Source: a virus. From it: DNA of 20,852 bases. The notes under the pieces are model-generated. The model did no database searches and had not been told where the DNA came from. It saw only the letters and a list, made by a program, of their open reading frames with translations. Where the stretch lies: IMG/VR virus record IMGVR_UViG_3300027770_000300, positions 1-20,852 of that record; one strand, 5' to 3'. The translations under genes and the position numbers were made by a program. Positions 6,278 to 16,515 of the stretch are shown here, piece by piece (the first letter of the stretch is position 1; every line of letters begins with the position of its first letter).

Positions 6278-6451
6278 CTTGTAAAAAGTTTGGCAGCACA
6301 CAAGCAAGCAGCAAGCATTCCGCAAAAAGTTCAAAATTTCTAGGTCGAGTTAGACTAGATCACCAGGGGCCGAGATCTCTGGACCTATTAAAAATTGCGC
6401 TACAGTTTTTTTAGGGCTAGTATAGAAATTCTGGGCACATATAAGAAATAG
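6278..6451. other. Intergenic spacer between convergent early and accessory genes
   Basis: No convincing gene is seen. CCAG (6363-6366) and CTGG (6379-6382) form a weak hairpin containing the palindrome GAGATCTC. A T7 run lies near 6406-6413 without a clear stem before it. It may hold termination signals for both converging units. Confidence 0.5.
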
Positions 6452-6763
6452 TTATTTTATGCTTAGAATCCATTTTACTAAAATTTTTGCTTCGTCTGGG
6501 TTTACTTGACTATTAGCTGGCATGGGCATTGTTCCCCAAACTCCACCACCCCCTGCCATAATTTTTTTACTCAATCTATCTTCAGCAAGCGTATCGTTTT
6601 TATATTTTGCAGCAACATCTTTATATGCTGGTCCAACCAGTTTAGAATCAATTGCGTGACAAGCCAAGCAATTTTTACTTTGCGCCAGTGTTTTAGGATC
6701 AACTGCATATACAGTAGTAGTCAAAGACATGATTAGTATTGCTGATGTTATTAACTTTTTCAT
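6452..6763 (-). CDS. Secreted class I cytochrome c (c551/c552 type), 103 aa
   Basis: The start ATG at 6763 follows AAGGAG at the right spacing; a longer frame to 6814 would run into the terminator and is rejected. Residues 1-20 are a classic Sec signal peptide with a VYA cleavage site. The heme-attachment motif CLACH is at 32-36, and GGGGVWGTMPMPAN (71-84) matches the methionine-ligand loop of the c551 family (compare GVWGPIPMPPN in Pseudomonas c551), making M81 the likely axial ligand. Mature length of about 83 residues is normal. The protein should be a periplasmic electron carrier, needing host heme-maturation machinery. Its presence beside phage genes marks it as a probable host-derived auxiliary metabolic gene. 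Confidence 0.93.
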   Translation of the reverse strand: MKKLITSAILIMSLTTTVYAVDPKTLAQSKNCLACHAIDSKLVGPAYKDVAAKYKNDTLAEDRLSKKIMAGGGGVWGTMPMPANSQVNPDEAKILVKWILSIK

Positions 6764-6794
6764 AAAATACTCCTTAGTTGCATTAGTATATATT

Positions 6795-6821
6795 AAAAAA
6801 GGTTGCCGAAGCAACCTTTTT
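6795..6821 (-). terminator. Rho-independent terminator after the tmRNA
   Basis: On the - strand, GGTTGC-TTCG-GCAACC (6816-6801, UUCG tetraloop) is followed by a T run (6800-6795). A-tracts flank both sides (6817-6821 are T on the + strand), so it could act in both directions. It ends the permuted tmRNA transcript before the cytochrome gene. Confidence 0.92.
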
Positions 6822-6978
6822 GGTGGTTTCTGTTACGAGGTATTTCCTACCCTAAGCGGCGTTTAGGCTGCTAATGCGTACTGTTCGTCGTTTGCGTTTA
6901 CGTTTTTTTAGTTTTAACATCTACTCTGATGTGCCGTCCACTCTGTTACTTGTTGCCCTGTCGAAACTATGCAGGCCC
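6822..6978 (-). ncRNA. ssrA: tmRNA coding piece (5' tRNA half, PK1, tag frame)
   Basis: Begins with the acceptor 5' strand at 6978, then a D-loop-like UUUCGAC (6966-6960) and the P2 strand. A CAUC/GAUG hairpin region resembling pseudoknot PK1 precedes an A-rich stretch before the resume codon. After the tag, hairpins CCUAA/UUAGG and GGUA/UACC follow. The mature 3' end lies somewhere before the terminator stem and is uncertain. Confidence 0.88.
6863..6895 (-). CDS. tmRNA proteolysis tag reading frame (ANDEQYALAA)
   Basis: Resume codon GCA at 6895-6893, then AAC GAC GAA CAG TAC GCA TTA GCA GCC and TAA (6865-6863). The peptide matches the ANDExYALAA type known in beta- and gammaproteobacteria, ending in the LAA degron read by ClpXP. 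It is translated on tmRNA after trans-translation, not from a start codon. Confidence 0.95.
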   Translation of the reverse strand, partial: ANDEQYALAA

Positions 6979-7049
6979 ATTATAAACATACTGTTTGGAA
7001 CTTTTATTATGAGTATTGTTTGCTCATTCACCAGTAGACAATATGTTTA
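6979..7049 (-). other. tmRNA intervening segment removed on maturation
   Basis: The 71 nt between the CCA end and the acceptor 5' strand. Its ends extend the acceptor stem: 7050-7042 pairs with 6990-6982 (9 bp, AUAAACAUA with UAUGUUUAU), so the precursor forms one continuous hairpin. In bacteria with permuted tmRNA this segment is excised by tRNA-end processing, giving two RNA pieces. Confidence 0.85.
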
Positions 7050-7112
7050 TGGTGGACCTGGGGGGATTCGCACCCCCGTCCAGAACACTTTTCTCTTTGC
7101 TTCATACAGCAA
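7050..7112 (-). ncRNA. ssrA: tmRNA acceptor piece (3' tRNA half)
   Basis: Contains the P2 3' strand (7087-7081), the T arm (7077-7061), the acceptor 3' strand (7060-7054), A73 and CCA. The 5' end is set from the late-promoter-like GATAAATA at 7127-7120 and is approximate. Confidence 0.88.
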
Positions 7113-7119
7113 TAACTTC

Positions 7120-7127
7120 TATTTATC
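7120..7127 (-). promoter_or_regulatory. Candidate late promoter of the tmRNA gene
   Basis: GATAAATA on the - strand (7127-7120) is one base off the T4-type late -10 element TATAAATA and lies about 10 nt before the estimated 5' end of the acceptor piece. It overlaps the stop of the 47-aa ORF at 7126. Confidence 0.45.
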
Positions 7128-7269
7128 ACCAAGTTTTCTTAGCAATCCAATGTTGTAGCTCTTGTACTCGCCAAGCCAGTCCCCAAGGCAATGTGAAAAA
7201 TATCTTGTTACCATTAGGAGTGTACATAGTTTTGCCATCATTATCAACACCCATCAATCCTATAAACAT
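7126..7269 (-). CDS. Small protein, 47 aa, Trp-rich, unknown function
   Basis: The ATG at 7269 has a good AGGAG site five bases upstream. The 47 residues start MFIGLMGVDNDGKTMYTPNG, then a strand KIFFTLPWGLAWR and an amphipathic helix VQELQHWIAKKTW. The protein has a coherent beta-hairpin-then-helix look despite its size. Its first 28 bases, including the codons for MFIGLMGVD, are repeated exactly at 7550-7577, upstream of the neighbouring gene. It sits just ahead of the tmRNA, perhaps on the same transcript. Confidence 0.62.
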   Translation of the reverse strand: MFIGLMGVDNDGKTMYTPNGNKIFFTLPWGLAWRVQELQHWIAKKTW

Positions 7270-7271
7270 AT
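7244..7271. repeat. 28-bp direct repeat, copy 1
   Basis: Identical to 7550-7577. It covers the start codon and first nine codons of the 47-aa gene read on the - strand. Confidence 0.9.
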
Positions 7272-7284
7272 CATCTCCTCTAAC

Positions 7285-7521
7285 TCAATGTCTCACAGCA
7301 AACATACTGCTGATCATTGCTCTTACTAAAACTAAATCACTTTCACATGTGACCACTATAGGCTCATCAAGATCTTCATCATCTTCCCAAGCTGCTTGTG
7401 GAAACTGTAAAAAAGTAAAGATGGTTCTGAAGGTCACAGTCCTACCTTGTGTGTAGGCCATTTCTATCACGTCCACTATGGAATTTACTACCTGTTGAGT
7501 TTTAAAATTTAGTGGAGTCAT
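7285..7521 (-). CDS. Acidic small protein, 78 aa, unknown function
   Basis: A GTG at 7524 and an ATG at 7521 are adjacent; I choose the ATG. No strong ribosome site is present, as for many genes of this half. The 78-aa protein begins with a helical part (FKTQQVVNSIVDVIEMAYTQG), then an acidic turn WEDDEDLDEPIVVTCES and a helix LVLVRAMISSMFA. Its C-terminal pattern (P, hydrophobic pair, Cys, acidic, then helix) loosely resembles the acidic ORF at 9490. It lies between the two copies of the 28-bp repeat. Confidence 0.62.
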   Translation of the reverse strand: MTPLNFKTQQVVNSIVDVIEMAYTQGRTVTFRTIFTFLQFPQAAWEDDEDLDEPIVVTCESDLVLVRAMISSMFAVRH

Positions 7522-7530
7522 CACAGTATA

Positions 7531-7538
7531 TATTTATT
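7531..7538 (-). promoter_or_regulatory. Candidate late promoter motif
   Basis: AATAAATA on the - strand (7538-7531) about 9 bases before the start at 7521. The position matches late-type motifs ahead of other genes here. Confidence 0.35.
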
Positions 7539-7549
7539 TAGATAACACG

Positions 7550-7577
7550 TCAACACCCATCAATCCTATAAACATAT
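7550..7577. repeat. 28-bp direct repeat, copy 2 (truncated gene start)
   Basis: Identical to 7244-7271. Read on the - strand it encodes MFIGLMGVD and then runs into VLSK and a stop, so it looks like a broken duplicate of the 5' end of the 47-aa gene. Confidence 0.88.
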
Positions 7578-7586
7578 GCGATCCTT

Positions 7587-7907
7587 TTAATCGTTGTTAG
7601 ATGATATTGTAATCACCATGGCAATAACACCTGCCAAACAGGCAAATAGTATCCATGACTGGACCAGCACACTGACAAACACAGCCAATGCCCACATTAA
7701 TGCCAATGAGCGTGTACGTTGTTCAGGGGTTTCCATGGGCACATCATGTCTAGGCGCATATTGCGTTTGATTTCCGCCATTCAGTGCTGCCATCTTTTCT
7801 TGATGTTCAGTACACCAAGGGCATTGACCGTTATGGAATAGTCTAGGCGGTCTAAAGTACGCTCTACCGCAAGTTGGGCATTGTAGGGTGTCAGTCATAG
7901 TATACAT
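7587..7907 (-). CDS. Zinc-ribbon membrane protein, 106 aa
   Basis: The N-terminus has two CxxC pairs (C10/C13 in CPTCG and C29/C32 in CPWC), a typical zinc ribbon. A polar linker follows, then two close hydrophobic helices between about residues 67 and 101 (SLALMWALAVFVSVLVQSW and LFACLAGVIAMVITI), with a short polar tail. It should sit in the inner membrane with the ribbon in the cytoplasm. Starts at 7907 or three codons later (7898) are both possible; neither has a clear ribosome site. Zinc-ribbon plus transmembrane proteins are widespread and this does not define a function. Confidence 0.8.
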   Translation of the reverse strand: MYTMTDTLQCPTCGRAYFRPPRLFHNGQCPWCTEHQEKMAALNGGNQTQYAPRHDVPMETPEQRTRSLALMWALAVFVSVLVQSWILFACLAGVIAMVITISSNND

Positions 7908-7946
7908 AGTATATTATCTTGGATTAGTACTAATAGCAGTAGTTTA

Positions 7947-8057
7947 TTAACGATTAAAATATTTTTTGCGCCAGTCGCTGCGCTCTTCTATATAGGGTGC
8001 CGGGCAATTACTTCTTTCGTTTAACAGCTTTTTTAGCGGCTCGTTTAGCCATGGCAT
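7947..8057 (-). CDS. Possible 36-aa ORF overlapping the basic-protein gene
   Basis: A frame from ATG 8057 to TAA 7947-7949 overlaps the 38-aa gene in another frame and continues past it. The part beyond the overlap reads as a plausible peptide (CPAPYIEERSDWRKKYFNR). No ribosome site precedes the ATG. It could be a separate gene, the remnant of one, or the tail of a frameshifted product. Confidence 0.28.
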   Translation of the reverse strand: MPWLNEPLKKLLNERSNCPAPYIEERSDWRKKYFNR

Positions 8058-8124
8058 TCAAGCTACGTGGTTTAGGTGGTTTCTTACCTTTAAGGATTTG
8101 ACTTACTCTACGTGGGCTGGGCAT
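8008..8124 (-). CDS. Very basic small protein, 38 aa
   Basis: AGGAG lies just upstream of ATG 8124. About 40 percent of the 38 residues are Lys or Arg (MPSPRRVSQILKGKKPPKPR..., ending KKAVKRKK). There is no hydrophobic core, so it is probably disordered until bound to nucleic acid or ribosomes (inference). Its strong ribosome site, unusual for this half, supports it as a real gene. Confidence 0.6.
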   Translation of the reverse strand: MPSPRRVSQILKGKKPPKPRSLNAMAKRAAKKAVKRKK

Positions 8125-8150
8125 ATTTGACTCCTGGATAAATGATATTG

Positions 8151-8372
8151 TTAATAAAAGTCGTCCGTTTGATTAAGTTGTTTTAGAACTTCTGTAATAG
8201 ATTCACTGACTTCCCAAGTACCGTGGGGTGGACAAAATATAAAAGTTACCGCATCTAAACTTCCATCATCTCTAGGCACCGTGGCATTATGCACTGTGAC
8301 TATCAGATCTTTACGGATACAAATTGTGTTGCCTTTGTGCGCCAGGCTGGCGTTGGTTAATTTTAAGTACAT
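8151..8372 (-). CDS. Small beta-rich protein, 73 aa
   Basis: Start ATG 8372 with no ribosome site. The 73 residues look like a small all-beta fold (YLKLTNASL, NTICIRKDLIVTVHNA, AVTFIFCPPHGTWEVSES) followed by a helix ITEVLKQLNQ. Short phage proteins with an initial strand, an IRKDLIVTV stretch and a final helix are familiar, but I know no function. It diverges from the GNAT-like gene at 8489. Confidence 0.7.
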   Translation of the reverse strand: MYLKLTNASLAHKGNTICIRKDLIVTVHNATVPRDDGSLDAVTFIFCPPHGTWEVSESITEVLKQLNQTDDFY

Positions 8373-11599: not shown

Positions 11600-11607
11600 T
11601 ATTTATC
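11600..11607 (-). promoter_or_regulatory. Candidate late promoter motif
   Basis: GATAAATA on the - strand (11607-11600), five bases before the ATG at 11594 and overlapping the end of the propeller gene. If used, the transcript would be nearly leaderless. Confidence 0.4.
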
Positions 11608-13441
11608 AGTTAGTATATCTTAAGCAAAGCTCGTTAGCATATAGTTCCGTTTTTACAAGATTAGTTTGTTTAGACGCTAGGTCTAATAATGATAACAATG
11701 ACACATCTTTTGTTGAATTAAGTTCTGCTTGTTTAGCTTGATTAATTAACATATTAATTTGTAAAGAATCATCTCTTCTTGACAACAAATCTTTACTAGC
11801 GTTATGACGTTTTGCCAATTTACTAGCAGCACATATTGCATCTCGAGCCAATAAATCATAACGAGTGGGTTTAAATTTTTGTATACCACCAATCAAGGGC
11901 GGTAATCTATCTCCTAATATTCCTCGAGATAATGCACGCCTCATAGGAGAATGCGCTATGTAAATTGATCCGTCTGGACCAACACTAGATACTGACATAG
12001 TTTCTTCTCTACCTTCAGAAAACCATCTTAATTTTCCAGTTTCTCGATCAAGCAGCCCCATACCAAATTTTGTCATAATACCGGCCTTGCCTAATTTTCT
12101 ACCAGCAGCAATTCCTATCAGAATACCATTAGCTGTGATAGTTGCAGAAATTCCATTAAGATTATCAAATCCTGGATATGCGTCAAGGGTTGCTTTCCAA
12201 ACTATACTTGCTGAATTGTCATTATTATGTAATTTTAATATATGTTCTCTATTCACTACATACATCTCGTTACCATCTGCCGCTACTGCAATAGATGCTG
12301 CTACTTGCGTACCGACATTAATACGCCATACTTCTTTAAGACTCGGATCGAGAGCAATAACATTTCCCGTATCATCTGATATTACTATTAATTTACTATC
12401 GGCCGATACAGTGGGAGTTGCGCCCGATCCTCCTGAAAAATAAAAATGATTAGTTATTTGTAAAGTTTTTTCTTTAGTAAGAGTTAATCGATATATAGCG
12501 CCATTATTTGATATATCGTCAACTTTCCCATCGTTCTCGTCCGGTGCAGTAGCAGCAATAATGATACTATCATCCTTGGGATCTACAGCAAAATAGTTAG
12601 CAACTTTTACATTATTTCCAAATATTATATCTAGAAATGTATTAAATAAATTGTCAATTTTAAATTGTTTTAAAAGTTCTGCATTTGCTTGGTTGGCTAA
12701 AAATTTAGGAATACGTAATTCTGTTTTAGCAGCAGGTGATCCTGGTAATTGAAATGGCGGTGTTAAAGATTTTCCGGTGTGTCTATCTAAAATAATAACT
12801 TTTCCATCAATACTTACCGTAACTAATGCATCGGCATTAGGTAGATAATTCATTCCCCACATATGCATTTGCCAAGTTGAGCCAGCGGGCGGCAAGCCTA
12901 TATTAGTAGGTACGCTCCATATTATACTTCCATCAGTACGTAATGCCATAGCAGTAGTATATGTAATATGATATATTATTTGTTGTCCTGAATGAGCAGG
13001 ATCATTAAGTATTAACGGGGCACCACTGCCAAATCCTTTTCCAGAAATTGCCCAGCGGCGTTTTCCTGTTATACTATCTAATGATACAAGTGATATATTC
13101 TCAGTAGTAACAGTTGGTGTAAAATATAAATTACCAGAATTGTCAAATGTTGGACCTTCGGCAATAAATGCATCTGTTTCTGAAATCCAATCTGGTTCAA
13201 AAGTAGGAGCGATTGCCGTCCATACTTCGTCACTATTAGAAGTAGATACATGCATGGTATGGAATGCATCAGGCAAGGGTATTATAGATGAAGTTTGTAA
13301 TGATGCACTACGATCACCAGTCGGAGACCACTGGGATACTTCCGGGACCGTAAATTCTCGAGCAATAGGAGTTGCTACTAACCAGGTCCAAAATGTAAAA
13401 CAACAAATTATAATTATCAGTAGAATTTTAAGAAAGCGCAT
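11606..13441 (-). CDS. Membrane-anchored PQQ-type beta-propeller protein, 611 aa
   Basis: I take the ATG at 13441 because it opens directly into a signal or anchor helix (residues 2-22, FLKILLIIIICCFTFWTWLVA); the longer frame to 13477 adds 12 unlikely residues and crosses a promoter-like motif. The rest is a repeat protein: segments such as LVSLDSITGKRRW, AMALRTDGSIIWSV, VIILDRHTGK, VIALDPSLKEVWRI and LLDRETGKLRWF are tryptophan-docking blades of the PQQ/quinoprotein-like propeller (as in BamB or alcohol dehydrogenase beta-propellers). Six to eight blades fit the length. No CxxCH heme site is present. An exported propeller of this size is unusual in a phage; it may bind a ligand or partner in the periplasm. 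Confidence 0.82.
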   Translation of the reverse strand: MRFLKILLIIIICCFTFWTWLVATPIAREFTVPEVSQWSPTGDRSASLQTSSIIPLPDAFHTMHVSTSNSDEVWTAIAPTFEPDWISETDAFIAEGPTFDNSGNLYFTPTVTTENISLVSLDSITGKRRWAISGKGFGSGAPLILNDPAHSGQQIIYHITYTTAMALRTDGSIIWSVPTNIGLPPAGSTWQMHMWGMNYLPNADALVTVSIDGKVIILDRHTGKSLTPPFQLPGSPAAKTELRIPKFLANQANAELLKQFKIDNLFNTFLDIIFGNNVKVANYFAVDPKDDSIIIAATAPDENDGKVDDISNNGAIYRLTLTKEKTLQITNHFYFSGGSGATPTVSADSKLIVISDDTGNVIALDPSLKEVWRINVGTQVAASIAVAADGNEMYVVNREHILKLHNNDNSASIVWKATLDAYPGFDNLNGISATITANGILIGIAAGRKLGKAGIMTKFGMGLLDRETGKLRWFSEGREETMSVSSVGPDGSIYIAHSPMRRALSRGILGDRLPPLIGGIQKFKPTRYDLLARDAICAASKLAKRHNASKDLLSRRDDSLQINMLINQAKQAELNSTKDVSLLSLLDLASKQTNLVKTELYANELCLRYTN

Positions 13442-13463
13442 ATTAAGTATGTATATAACCAGA

Positions 13464-13471
13464 TATTTATC
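13464..13471 (-). promoter_or_regulatory. Candidate late promoter motif
   Basis: GATAAATA on the - strand (13471-13464), 22 bases before the propeller start at 13441. Similar motifs precede other late-type genes here. Confidence 0.45.
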
Positions 13472-13512
13472 ATGCATATTTAATTTGAAATAACTATTAG
13501 TTAAATATAACT

Positions 13513-14076
13513 ATGATTGAACAAAACTATCGGGGGTATCTGCTTGCATCTCATCCTAAACGGATAGATCCGTACCTTCGAAGAAGCACAGTATTAATCA
13601 TGGAACACGGTCCAGCAGGTGCTATCGGGTTGCAGATTAACAAAAACTATAGTAATCTTACCCTAAAAAGTGTAATGGAAAACATAGGGCTATCCTTGCC
13701 AAATTCACAAGATTATCCATTATATAACGGCGGCCCTATACATACAAATAGGATTCATGTAGTGCATACACTTGATTGGTACAGCCCTACAACTGTTAAA
13801 TTAAATGATAAAATTGGTGTTAGTAAAGACATAAGCATACTAACTGCACTAGCTAAAGACGACGGCCCTGAACATTTTAGGACCATAGCAGGTTATACTA
13901 AATGGTTACCAGGACACCTAGATGGTGAGATTGTAGGAGAAGATCCTTGGTCCATTAATCATACGTGGACATTTATACCATCGGATATTAATACATTATT
14001 TGGTCTTGACGATATTGATCAATGGCACCGAGTAATTTCAGAAAGTGGAAGATTACAAGTCTCCCACTGGTTTTAA
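13513..14076 (+). CDS. YqgE/AlgH family (UPF0301) protein, 187 aa
   Basis: The N-terminus RGYLLASHPKRIDPYLRRSTVLIMEH matches the family signature G-x-L-x-A-x-P ... D-P-x-F-x-R-S-V-x-L. It continues with GPAGAIGLQINKN and YNGGPIHTNRIHVVHT, then GYTKWLPGHLDGEI, matching the family's GYAGWGPGQLE. Length 187 is normal. AlgH/YqgE proteins are widespread in proteobacteria with no agreed biochemical role. A phage copy suggests transfer from a host or a regulatory use during infection. No ribosome site precedes the ATG. It is convergent with the helicase gene (4-base overlap). Confidence 0.88.
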   Translation: MIEQNYRGYLLASHPKRIDPYLRRSTVLIMEHGPAGAIGLQINKNYSNLTLKSVMENIGLSLPNSQDYPLYNGGPIHTNRIHVVHTLDWYSPTTVKLNDKIGVSKDISILTALAKDDGPEHFRTIAGYTKWLPGHLDGEIVGEDPWSINHTWTFIPSDINTLFGLDDIDQWHRVISESGRLQVSHWF

Positions 14077-15521
14077 TCGCGCTCGCTATTTAAACCAGCA
14101 AGTATAGTTCTAATATCCCCTACCTTAGAACCCTTGTTAAATTTGTTAATACCTATTCCTTGGGTAGGATCTACGTCTGTAATTTCTCCAGTTTCTGGAT
14201 CAGTAGTAGTTGATACTGTGCTAGTTCTCTTTAACCCATTGTATATACTATTTGATTTATTGCTTTGTTGACTCAGGCTTGATTCTTGTTCATCTTCTCC
14301 TAGGTCAGTAATACGTAGTGTTTCTAGATTAAATTCTAATTCAACTTTTTGTCCAACTCCAGAACTCGAACGTGTCTTCATAAACTGAATTTGATAACGT
14401 CCACGTTCCTTCATTGCTCTACTCGTAAAGATACCGATTACATTATCCGCGGTCATAATCTTACTCAATCCGCCCGAGATATGGCTGTGATCAAACTCAA
14501 TTTCTTCAACTGCACTACGATTTAACTGACTAGCAGTTACAGTAATACATTGTGTTTCCATGGCTAAGTTTCTAATCTCTTCTGATACATACTTGTCTTT
14601 AACAAACAAATCACTTGGACTAACTTTAACACTTAGTGGCATCATCAAATCTAAATAGTCGATAAGAAGTACATCAGGTTTACATCCTTTTTTTACTTGA
14701 TACTCTTTTAAATAAGCACGAATGTCATTACAATTCTTGCCCGATGGCATATACTTAACTTGTAAATGACCTGATCTCTTACCAAGAACTTTAACTTTTA
14801 ATTCTACATCATCGATATTTTTAAATATTTCTCTAGTACCAATTCCTGTAGTCATGGAATCTAAACGCATCGCAACTAAACCTTCACTCAACTCAAATGT
14901 CAGATATAAAACATTTAGTCCCGCTAATGCCCAGTTTACACCCAAGTTTGCTAAGAACAAACTCTTGCCACCGCCTGAACCTGCACAGAATATATTCAAC
15001 TCGCCTCTATTAAATCCACCATACAACTTTCTATCGATGCTAGGCCAGCCTGTACTAATTTGCCCATTACCGTCTTTGAGTTTAGTTAGACGTGCTCTCG
15101 GATCTTCAAAGTAATCTGTACCCATATCTTTGTTTAACGATATTTGTATAGCATCTTTGATCAGTTTCTCTACTGGACCGTAGTCACCTTTTTCTAACAA
15201 GTCTGCGCTATCTAAAATTGCTCTCTCAAGACCTTTATGTCGACTAAAATTTTCAAATTCATCCATTAGCCAATCATAGTTTTCTTTAGGCAATGCTACT
15301 GGTTGCAAGTCTATACCCACACTAGCATTAACAATACTGGCCTCTGGCATGACTTTATATTCATCAACATACTTATTAATGAAGTCAGCAGTATCTCTAA
15401 GACGTTGATCAAAATTAAGAGGATCAAAAATATTCTGGCAACGTGCAAATGTTTCGCCGTTGCTCATAAACATTTCTAGATATAGTTTTTGTATATCATA
15501 ATTATAATTTGGTTTAGTCAT
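14073..15521 (-). CDS. 41: Replicative DNA helicase, DnaB / T4 gp41 family, 482 aa
   Basis: Residues 1-130 form a helical N-terminal domain; the RecA-like motor follows. Walker A is GSGGGKS (181-187), with LYLTFELSE (206-213) as motif H1a, Walker B LLIDYLD (285-291), and the H3/H4 region TVTASQLNRSAVEE (327-340) with Q332. KTRSSSGVG (382-390) fits the arginine-finger and DNA-contact segment. This is the 5'-3' hexameric helicase that, with the adjacent primase, forms the phage primosome. The gene overlaps the end of the primase gene by 8 bases. The C-terminal 70 residues are Ser/Thr-rich and probably disordered. Confidence 0.95.
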   Translation of the reverse strand: MTKPNYNYDIQKLYLEMFMSNGETFARCQNIFDPLNFDQRLRDTADFINKYVDEYKVMPEASIVNASVGIDLQPVALPKENYDWLMDEFENFSRHKGLERAILDSADLLEKGDYGPVEKLIKDAIQISLNKDMGTDYFEDPRARLTKLKDGNGQISTGWPSIDRKLYGGFNRGELNIFCAGSGGGKSLFLANLGVNWALAGLNVLYLTFELSEGLVAMRLDSMTTGIGTREIFKNIDDVELKVKVLGKRSGHLQVKYMPSGKNCNDIRAYLKEYQVKKGCKPDVLLIDYLDLMMPLSVKVSPSDLFVKDKYVSEEIRNLAMETQCITVTASQLNRSAVEEIEFDHSHISGGLSKIMTADNVIGIFTSRAMKERGRYQIQFMKTRSSSGVGQKVELEFNLETLRITDLGEDEQESSLSQQSNKSNSIYNGLKRTSTVSTTTDPETGEITDVDPTQGIGINKFNKGSKVGDIRTILAGLNSERD

Positions 15522-16515
15522 AAAGTGCTTCTAATTTTTTCTTTAGTAGTTGTATTTTTATCTCGTTTTCTTCTCGATAACGCAATATTGTGAATAGAGT
15601 ATATATCCTTCCATACTTTGCCACTGCATCTGCTACATCTTTAACATCATTCCATGGGGGTAAACTAACTGCCCAATTATGCTTTATAGCTGCTTGTATT
15701 AGCTTCAACCCAGCCTTATCCCTGTCAGGTACAACTATCACCTGTTTGCCCAGAGCGTTAATTCTAGCGCATTGGGTTTCGTTGGGCTCGTTATGCATGA
15801 TTGCAACACCATCTATACCTATGGCATCAAACTGTCCTTCAACTACTATTATATATTCTCTGTCATTTTTTTGACGGTCTATATTGAATACATATCCTGG
15901 TTGGGCATCTGTAAGATACTTGGGTTTGCCTTCAGTGATCTTTCTACCAGTATATCCAACTATCTTTCCATCTTGATAGAAAGGTATAAGCAATCGATCC
16001 TTATATCCAGGAGCAGGAGTCCACATCCAATCATACCAATCTAAATCCATGCCTCTGCCGACAAGGTATTCAAATACTCGAACCATGTCTTCTTCAGCAC
16101 CCGGCTTCCAAACTACTTGTGCCCAATCTTTGAGCAGCATGGAGCCTTCTGGGAGTTCACGTTCTTCTAAAGTAAAACTAATTGATTTTTTAGCAACAGG
16201 CTGATCATCTTTGAGTTTAAGTGCTATCAATCCAAGTTTAGAGATCTCAGTTTCTGACAAGCCCAACCATTTAAATAAACTTTTAGTATTCTTGGTTAGT
16301 AAATGTCCAGGTGCCCAACCTGCTTTAAAATTACAATTGAAACAGTGATATGTCCAGCCGCCTTTGGCTGTTAATAATATTCCGCCACGTTGACGTGTAT
16401 CTTTACTATTACCAGTATGGATGCAACAGGGCGCATTGAAGCTAGACCAACCACTAGGAGTAGCTTTTCTTTTTGGAGGCAGTAGTGCTAACAGGGCATC
16501 CTGTATTTCATTCAT
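15514..16515 (-). CDS. 61: DNA primase, T4 gp61-like, 333 aa
   Basis: An N-terminal zinc-binding region has C30/C31 with H33 and, after a 24-residue spacer, C58 and C61 (CCIHTG ... YHCFNCNFKAG), matching the CHC2-type motif of primases. A TOPRIM domain follows: VVEGQFDA with catalytic E226 (225-231) and VVPDRDKAG with D264 and D266 (261-269). It synthesises RNA primers for lagging-strand synthesis with the helicase encoded immediately downstream. The start at 16515 is 8 bases after the stop of the structural gene and has a TTGACA-17-TAAAAT promoter. That promoter would start transcription almost at the ATG. Confidence 0.93.
   Translation of the reverse strand: MNEIQDALLALLPPKRKATPSGWSSFNAPCCIHTGNSKDTRQRGGILLTAKGGWTYHCFNCNFKAGWAPGHLLTKNTKSLFKWLGLSETEISKLGLIALKLKDDQPVAKKSISFTLEERELPEGSMLLKDWAQVVWKPGAEEDMVRVFEYLVGRGMDLDWYDWMWTPAPGYKDRLLIPFYQDGKIVGYTGRKITEGKPKYLTDAQPGYVFNIDRQKNDREYIIVVEGQFDAIGIDGVAIMHNEPNETQCARINALGKQVIVVPDRDKAGLKLIQAAIKHNWAVSLPPWNDVKDVADAVAKYGRIYTLFTILRYREENEIKIQLLKKKLEALYD

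Follow-up and report, generated by a model that had tools for sequence, protein, structure and literature searches.

A complete circularly permuted, beta-type tmRNA gene in a phage contig and its relatives in viral genomes

Anatomy of the permuted gene

The window analysed here, a virus record of 20,852 bases, carries on its minus strand a complete, circularly permuted tmRNA gene of the beta type. The Rfam model beta_tmRNA (RF01850) matches positions 6794-7163 over its full length (model positions 1-331) with 128.9 bits and an E value of 1.9e-39, against a gathering cut-off of 84 bits, and the model tmRNA_permuted (RF04321, cut-off 47 bits) matches the same gene with 123.4 bits (E 4e-24). ARAGORN likewise calls a permuted tmRNA, at 6772-7142 of this strand, with the tag ANDEQYALAA. 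The 3' half of the acceptor comes first, then an intervening segment and then the 5' half, which is the order of a permuted, two-piece gene. An earlier note on this DNA had proposed such a gene at 6801-7127; the place is right, and the interval is slightly short at both ends when compared with the two program-defined extents. The parts of the gene are as follows.

6794-7163, minus strand: permuted beta-type tmRNA gene (ssrA), including its terminator (Rfam extent; ARAGORN)
7050-7128, minus strand: acceptor (3') piece, with the 5' arm of P2, the T arm and the acceptor 3' strand (5' end approximate)
7060-7054, minus strand: acceptor 3' strand, CAGGUCC (direct reading)
7053, minus strand: A73 (direct reading)
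7052-7050, minus strand: encoded CCA (direct reading)
6979-7049, minus strand: intervening segment, 71 nt, non-coding; a UAAU linker precedes G1
6983-7049, minus strand: helix that closes the intervening segment (7049-7038 paired to 6983-6994; 12 pairs if G-U is included)
6978-6972, minus strand: acceptor 5' strand, GGGCCUG, the start of the mRNA-like piece (direct reading)
6822-6978, minus strand: mRNA-like (5') piece, with the D-like loop, P2, the tag region and a 3' part (3' end approximate)
6863-6895, minus strand: tag frame ANDEQYALAA with UAA stop, resume codon GCA (ARAGORN, direct reading)
6796-6821, minus strand: intrinsic terminator with UUCG tetraloop and U tract (Rfam alignment, terminator reading)

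Direct reading bears out most of the details first proposed. The acceptor stem is paired at 7/7 positions, including G3-U70, and is followed by A73 and CCA; the intervening segment runs from 7049 to 6979 and thus has the 71 nt ascribed to it; and the UUCG-loop terminator is found at 6821-6796. A helix between the ends of the segment had been given as 9 bp: it is present and uninterrupted, stacked on the acceptor stem, and comprises 12 pairs when G-U is counted. The tag frame is closed by a stop codon and has a hydrophobic AA end, and ARAGORN reports the very tag that had been read from the sequence. The 71-nt segment holds no open reading frame of 10 codons or more and is in this sense non-coding. 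The tmRNA strand out-folds 100/100 dinucleotide shuffles (z -3.5). A promoter scan of the window returned 7 candidates against 6.6 expected, no excess over shuffles.

Phage context and the relatives of the gene

The neighbouring genes had been described as T4-like. They are phage genes, related to those of the jumbo phages Atu_ph07 and PA5oct and, judged by the helicase, probably only distantly T4-like: the helicase of the window has its nearest cultured relatives in Atu_ph07 and the PA5oct group (53-54%), and further matches to phage families include a primase, a dCMP deaminase and a DNA polymerase-like protein.

14073-16515, minus strand: DnaB-like replicative helicase and primase, the basis for grouping the contig with jumbo phages related to Atu_ph07/PA5oct
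6413-8202, no strand assigned: accessory insertion of ~1.8 kb with the cytochrome c gene, the tmRNA and ORFs of 79 and 106 aa (comparison with relatives)
6452-6763, minus strand: small c-type cytochrome gene, 3' of the tmRNA terminator (PF00034, 2.6e-10; phrog_36206)
7285-7524, minus strand: 79-aa ORF upstream of the tmRNA (homologue in contig L169)

The tmRNA lies within an insertion at about 6413-8202 that we regard as accessory, because related contigs bring its flanks close together: only 72 nt separate the counterparts of 6349-6412 and of 8203 onward in L010, and ~160 nt lie between the flanks that match the insertion borders in L003 and L027. A tblastn search with the cytochrome c protein of the insertion gave no match in cultured phages. 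Beside the insertion, at 6344-6412, about 60 apparently non-coding bases are kept in L010, L003, L018, L027, L038, L057 and L061, and the first 32-33 bases of this stretch in L021 and L060. Elsewhere in the window an AlgH/YqgE-like gene (13513-14076; PF02622, 1.4e-27) adjoins the phage helicase, with several relatives aligning across it, and a PQQ-type beta-propeller protein is encoded at 11606-13477, in the same phage contig as the small c-type cytochrome.

Fusion of a bacterial fragment to a phage contig is a general risk in metagenomes, and the neighbouring cytochrome c gene could be taken as a sign of it. Such an artefact, which the earlier note had named as a possible refutation, is nevertheless highly improbable here, because the phage flanks are collinear on both sides, because an independent contig (L169) has a related tmRNA beside the same 79-aa gene (88% DNA identity), and because relatives of the phage have their own copies. 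We fetched 80 viral helicase relatives and checked 50 of them, many being fragments, and found a permuted tmRNA in 3/50 (L050, L061 and the 354-kb record of L058). In L050 and L061 it occupies the same region as in the window, between the helicase gene and an AAA gene and in opposite orientation, and in the 354-kb record it is placed outside the helicase-AAA interval. L169 also encodes an endolysin-like protein, a thioredoxin and a ribonucleotide reductase; a large terminase match is present in 17/36 tmRNA-bearing records checked, most of the long ones among them; and a close bacterial copy of the window tmRNA was not found in the bacterial genomes searched.

A wider family was assembled from viral contigs scanned with two patterns, from the relatives found through the helicase and from records of cultured phages. 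Genes were called by ARAGORN, and fetched loci that held a one-piece gene or an ssrA fragment were set aside. The family holds at least 184 permuted tmRNA genes and at least 159 distinct intervening segments, in which frequencies are rough and conservation at some bases is not counted as evidence, these bases being fixed by the scan patterns. The acceptor stem is paired at 7/7 positions in 88/89 phage permuted genes and G3-U70 is present in 87/89, where the first search pattern had set C66, A67, U70-C72 and A73-CCA in most of the 89 and had left the partner 5' strand free.

The bacterial genes set against this family, about 50 loci, come from essentially one bacterial family, in which beta-type genes are concentrated: they occur in 76/200 of its genomes and in 1/41 genomes across its order, and class- and phylum-wide searches returned one or a few permuted genes above the cut-off. 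The window gene shares with betaproteobacterial RF01850 genes the gene order, the tRNA-like domain, P2, the tag region and the terminator. Its score of 128.9 bits is low beside the 220-336 bits or so of complete bacterial genes (one family sampled), and its 71-nt segment with a long acceptor-stacked helix differs from the 4-49 nt of the bacterial genes; viral segments mostly measure 53-255 nt. ARAGORN also places the CCA end differently in 42/56 sampled bacterial genes. At the lower limit, the bacterial permuted tmRNAs of L286 (G115:C1:605801-605991) and several of L361-L380 have intervening segments that measure just 4 nt; L286, whose tag is ANDDNFEVALAA, is an outlier.

In a tree of 141 genes and 210 columns the sampled bacterial genes form a cluster to which only a few viral genes come close; the window gene falls inside a large phage clade. 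The tree supports this separation and neither a direction nor a number of transfers, because it has no outgroup, a short alignment and essentially one bacterial family. In pairwise comparisons phage copies match the window gene over about 300 nt, whereas the sampled bacterial genes share only stretches of 35-55 nt.

These comparisons bear on the idea that the gene is a neutral passenger, a host gene lately captured by transduction or excision that serves the phage in no way. The accessory insertion which it shares with a cellular-looking cytochrome c gene, the relatives that do not have this insertion, and the small number of carriers among the helicase relatives, many of them fragments, would all fit a passenger. 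Related copies are present in many viral contigs, however, the long matches among phage copies stand against short ones to bacterial genes, and the structure covaries across the phage set, so that we hold this explanation to be quite unlikely.

The tag had been suggested as a pointer to the donor host, a use to which it is not suited. Beyond the window, and in the codon patterns searched, the exact ANDEQYALAA was found among viral contigs in three one-piece genes only, and in bacterial genomes 76 matches came from Pasteurellaceae, where the organism was named, and from one record labelled Pseudomonas stutzeri. As a donor marker the tag was therefore ruled out, because its other exact matches are one-piece genes of the Pasteurellaceae type, while the body of the window RNA belongs to the beta type and has its nearest relatives among other phage copies.

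Five cultured phage records hold an unannotated permuted tmRNA, one of them (vB_AbaM_3098) on an ARAGORN call only and with hypothetical protein genes annotated across it.

L284: Xanthomonas phage X1
L485, L486, L487, L488: Xanthomonas phage Rb1, Acinetobacter phage BUCT628, Alcaligenes phage QDWS595 and Acinetobacter phage vB_AbaM_3098

Xanthomonas, Alcaligenes and Acinetobacter hosts carry a one-piece tmRNA; if this holds for the hosts concerned, the copies in the cultured phages are no recent captures from them. These records supply cultured phage-host pairs in the three genera for direct tests of how a phage uses its tmRNA. Together with the family described above, they suggest that phages widely carry the permuted tmRNA as an accessory gene, and that it is commoner in viral contigs than annotation implies.

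The ssrA genes of the mycobacteriophage Bxz1 group, of Wildcat and of Bacillus phage G are one-piece, unlike that of the window. Phage-borne ssrA has been listed for these phages (PMC4131195). Permuted genes in phages are also already known, and the carriage by a phage that the earlier note found surprising is thus not new in itself (PMC9004378, PMC8928761). The methylophage Melnitz, a myophage with T4-like genes, has a two-piece ssrA for which a similar role was proposed, and when its authors surveyed the tmRNAs in 18,146 phage genomes, they found 53 of the two-piece kind (PMC9004378). The Melnitz tmRNA is of the alphaproteobacterial type by the authors' tree and is associated with a glutamine riboswitch (PMC9004378), whereas the window gene is of the beta type and the Rfam search of the window gave no riboswitch. 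Stenotrophomonas phage Marzo, of T4-like size and morphology, has a tmRNA inside a tRNA cluster that was called similar to the 'Betaproteobacter-class' (PMC8928761); the likeness to the window gene rests on this description, and permutation is unmentioned in the paper.

Intervening segments and nested reading frames

The closing helix of the window recurs in the phage genes. Ten consecutive terminal positions at one end of the segment pair with the opposite end, with an offset of four nucleotides, in 84-98% of at least 142 distinct segments, and most of these positions show several pair types among the segments listed, that is, they covary; pairs 1 and 2 were partly set by one search pattern, and the other pairs were free.

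Among the viral matches listed, 34/110 intervening segments of 75 nt or more contain a nested open reading frame. It starts about 9-14 nt past CCA, often after AAGGAG or AAGGAA, and the ribosome-binding site often lies inside the closing helix; it mostly ends in UGA, one base ahead of G1 and thus of the tRNA-like half. A stop codon in this place does not by itself argue for coding, because the terminal UGAU is also found in segments that have no frame. Spanning frames were compared with shuffles of the segment interiors. Where segments measured 130 nt or more, 16/21 clusters had such a frame, while 0.36 were expected and none of 300 interior shuffles gave more than 2; among clusters of 75-100 nt it was 11/41, against 2.9 expected (maximum 8); segments of 100-130 nt showed no excess (1/16 clusters). 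A third sample of permuted genes, for which the sole criterion was a ribosome-binding-like site after CCA and which includes some near-duplicates, had a nested frame in 13/15 against 3.7 expected (maximum 9).

The nested frames are of two size classes. Those of 39-80 codons fill the segment, from a start just past CCA to a stop at its far end. Of the short nested products, 10/12 are strongly hydrophobic (for example MNDNLGDLAIGVIVVLVIFALVLL), and many nested products are probably single-span membrane peptides of 20-29 residues.

39-80-codon nested ORFs: L282 (354-kb record of L058), L190, L101, L387, L419, L441, L479
39-80-codon nested ORFs, further loci: L461, L141, L415, L125, L167, L083, L598
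21-29-residue hydrophobic nested peptides: L173, L192, L422, L478, L397, L409, L434, L200, L095, L414
21-29-residue hydrophobic nested peptides, further loci: L400, L482, L122, L499, L523, L537, L543, L509, L528, L556
Free-standing homologues of nested proteins, upstream of a phage tmRNA: L155:1040-1195, L136:5328-5483, L396:1290-1418, L381:7005-7133, L185:3348-3476

Three homologous pairs of nested frames gave synonymous versus non-synonymous values of 0.71 vs 0.21, 0.61 vs 0.26 and 0.59 vs 0.21, very close pairs being uninformative for this test; judged by these values, the tested pairs show purifying selection. The nested proteins of L415/L141 and L430 have free-standing homologues just upstream of other phage tmRNAs, for example in L155 and L136. 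No homologue of two nested proteins was found in cultured phages, and a PHROGs search with ten of them gave one weak match.

Taken together, the closing helix and the nested frames make it probable that in this phage-owned lineage the intervening segment is a functional compartment, closed by a helix and occupied in a minority of genes by a small protein gene, of which the window has the non-coding version. If so, a single precursor RNA would yield both a protein and a tmRNA, and the question arises whether processing of the tmRNA controls translation of a small phage protein, or the reverse. Available portions of a 2025 tmRNA survey describe intervening segments with a tRNA gene or a repeat and leave protein genes unmentioned. 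We found no earlier report of nested frames in the open-access literature, and reports elsewhere are possible. Within that literature, three features appear to be new: how large the phage lineage is, the acceptor-stacked helix with its covariation, and the presence of nested frames in a minority of genes.

Proposed function

The earlier note had suggested a search for smpB. No member of the SmpB family turned up in the window contig, and none in 47 phage records, among which were the whole X1 record and three long contigs (383, 354 and 342 kb); the same search was positive in 10/14 control genomes. SmpB has been reported from some huge phages (PMC7162821), and since the contig is a 20.9-kb fragment, smpB may lie elsewhere in the genome of this phage. 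The absence from the contig and from the 47 records makes the SmpB of the host the likely partner.

We therefore favour, with a probability of about 0.8, a functional, phage-owned two-piece tmRNA that rescues ribosomes with the help of host partners. From the layout of the gene we infer the following course. After transcription of the precursor, the helix between the segment ends would prolong the acceptor stem, so that the tRNA-like end is presented as a single long stem; RNase P of the host would cut at G1 and other ribonucleases after CCA, which would remove the intervening segment, and the acceptor and mRNA-like pieces would stay joined through base pairs. The G3-U70 pair would allow charging with alanine by the host AlaRS, and host SmpB and EF-Tu would then carry the charged RNA to ribosomes stalled on broken messages, where ANDEQYALAA would be appended and the tagged product degraded by ClpXP-type proteases of the host. 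A lytic infection destroys the DNA and RNA of the host and cuts messages; under these conditions a copy of the phage's own could sustain the recycling of ribosomes, and it is plausible that it supplements the trans-translation of the host.

The gene might instead supply a decoy, an RNA that inhibits trans-translation in the host by titrating its SmpB or by filling stalled ribosomes. This has been proposed for the RNA of mycobacteriophage DS6A, which consists of a tRNA-like domain only, and molecules of this type are described as inhibitors of tmRNA, perhaps through titration of SmpB (PMC4131195; PMC11915505); the unusual C-termini (..ANA, ..RYA) of some related phage tags might likewise evade proteolysis. 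The window gene, however, keeps an intact mRNA-like piece, a resume codon, a stop codon and a canonical ALAA end, and among its phage relatives identical tags are spelled with different synonymous codons, which suggests that the tag itself is under selection. We consider a decoy unlikely and prefer the rescue of ribosomes by a working tmRNA.

Two groups of tags stand out among the relatives. Tags ending in ..QAANA, ..MTANA, ..LRANA and ..VARYA occur in L168, L135, L175 and L284 (Xanthomonas phage X1), and those in ..ANA or ..RYA may be poor ClpXP signals. A clade comprising L124, L132, L159, L166, L195, L200, L104, L140, L092 and L173 has ARAGORN tags of 24-31 residues (for example ANADTFDFSAMSFTGNTVSGKSKVALAA), some of which end in a second canonical-looking tag; either these tags are truly long or their resume point has been mis-set.
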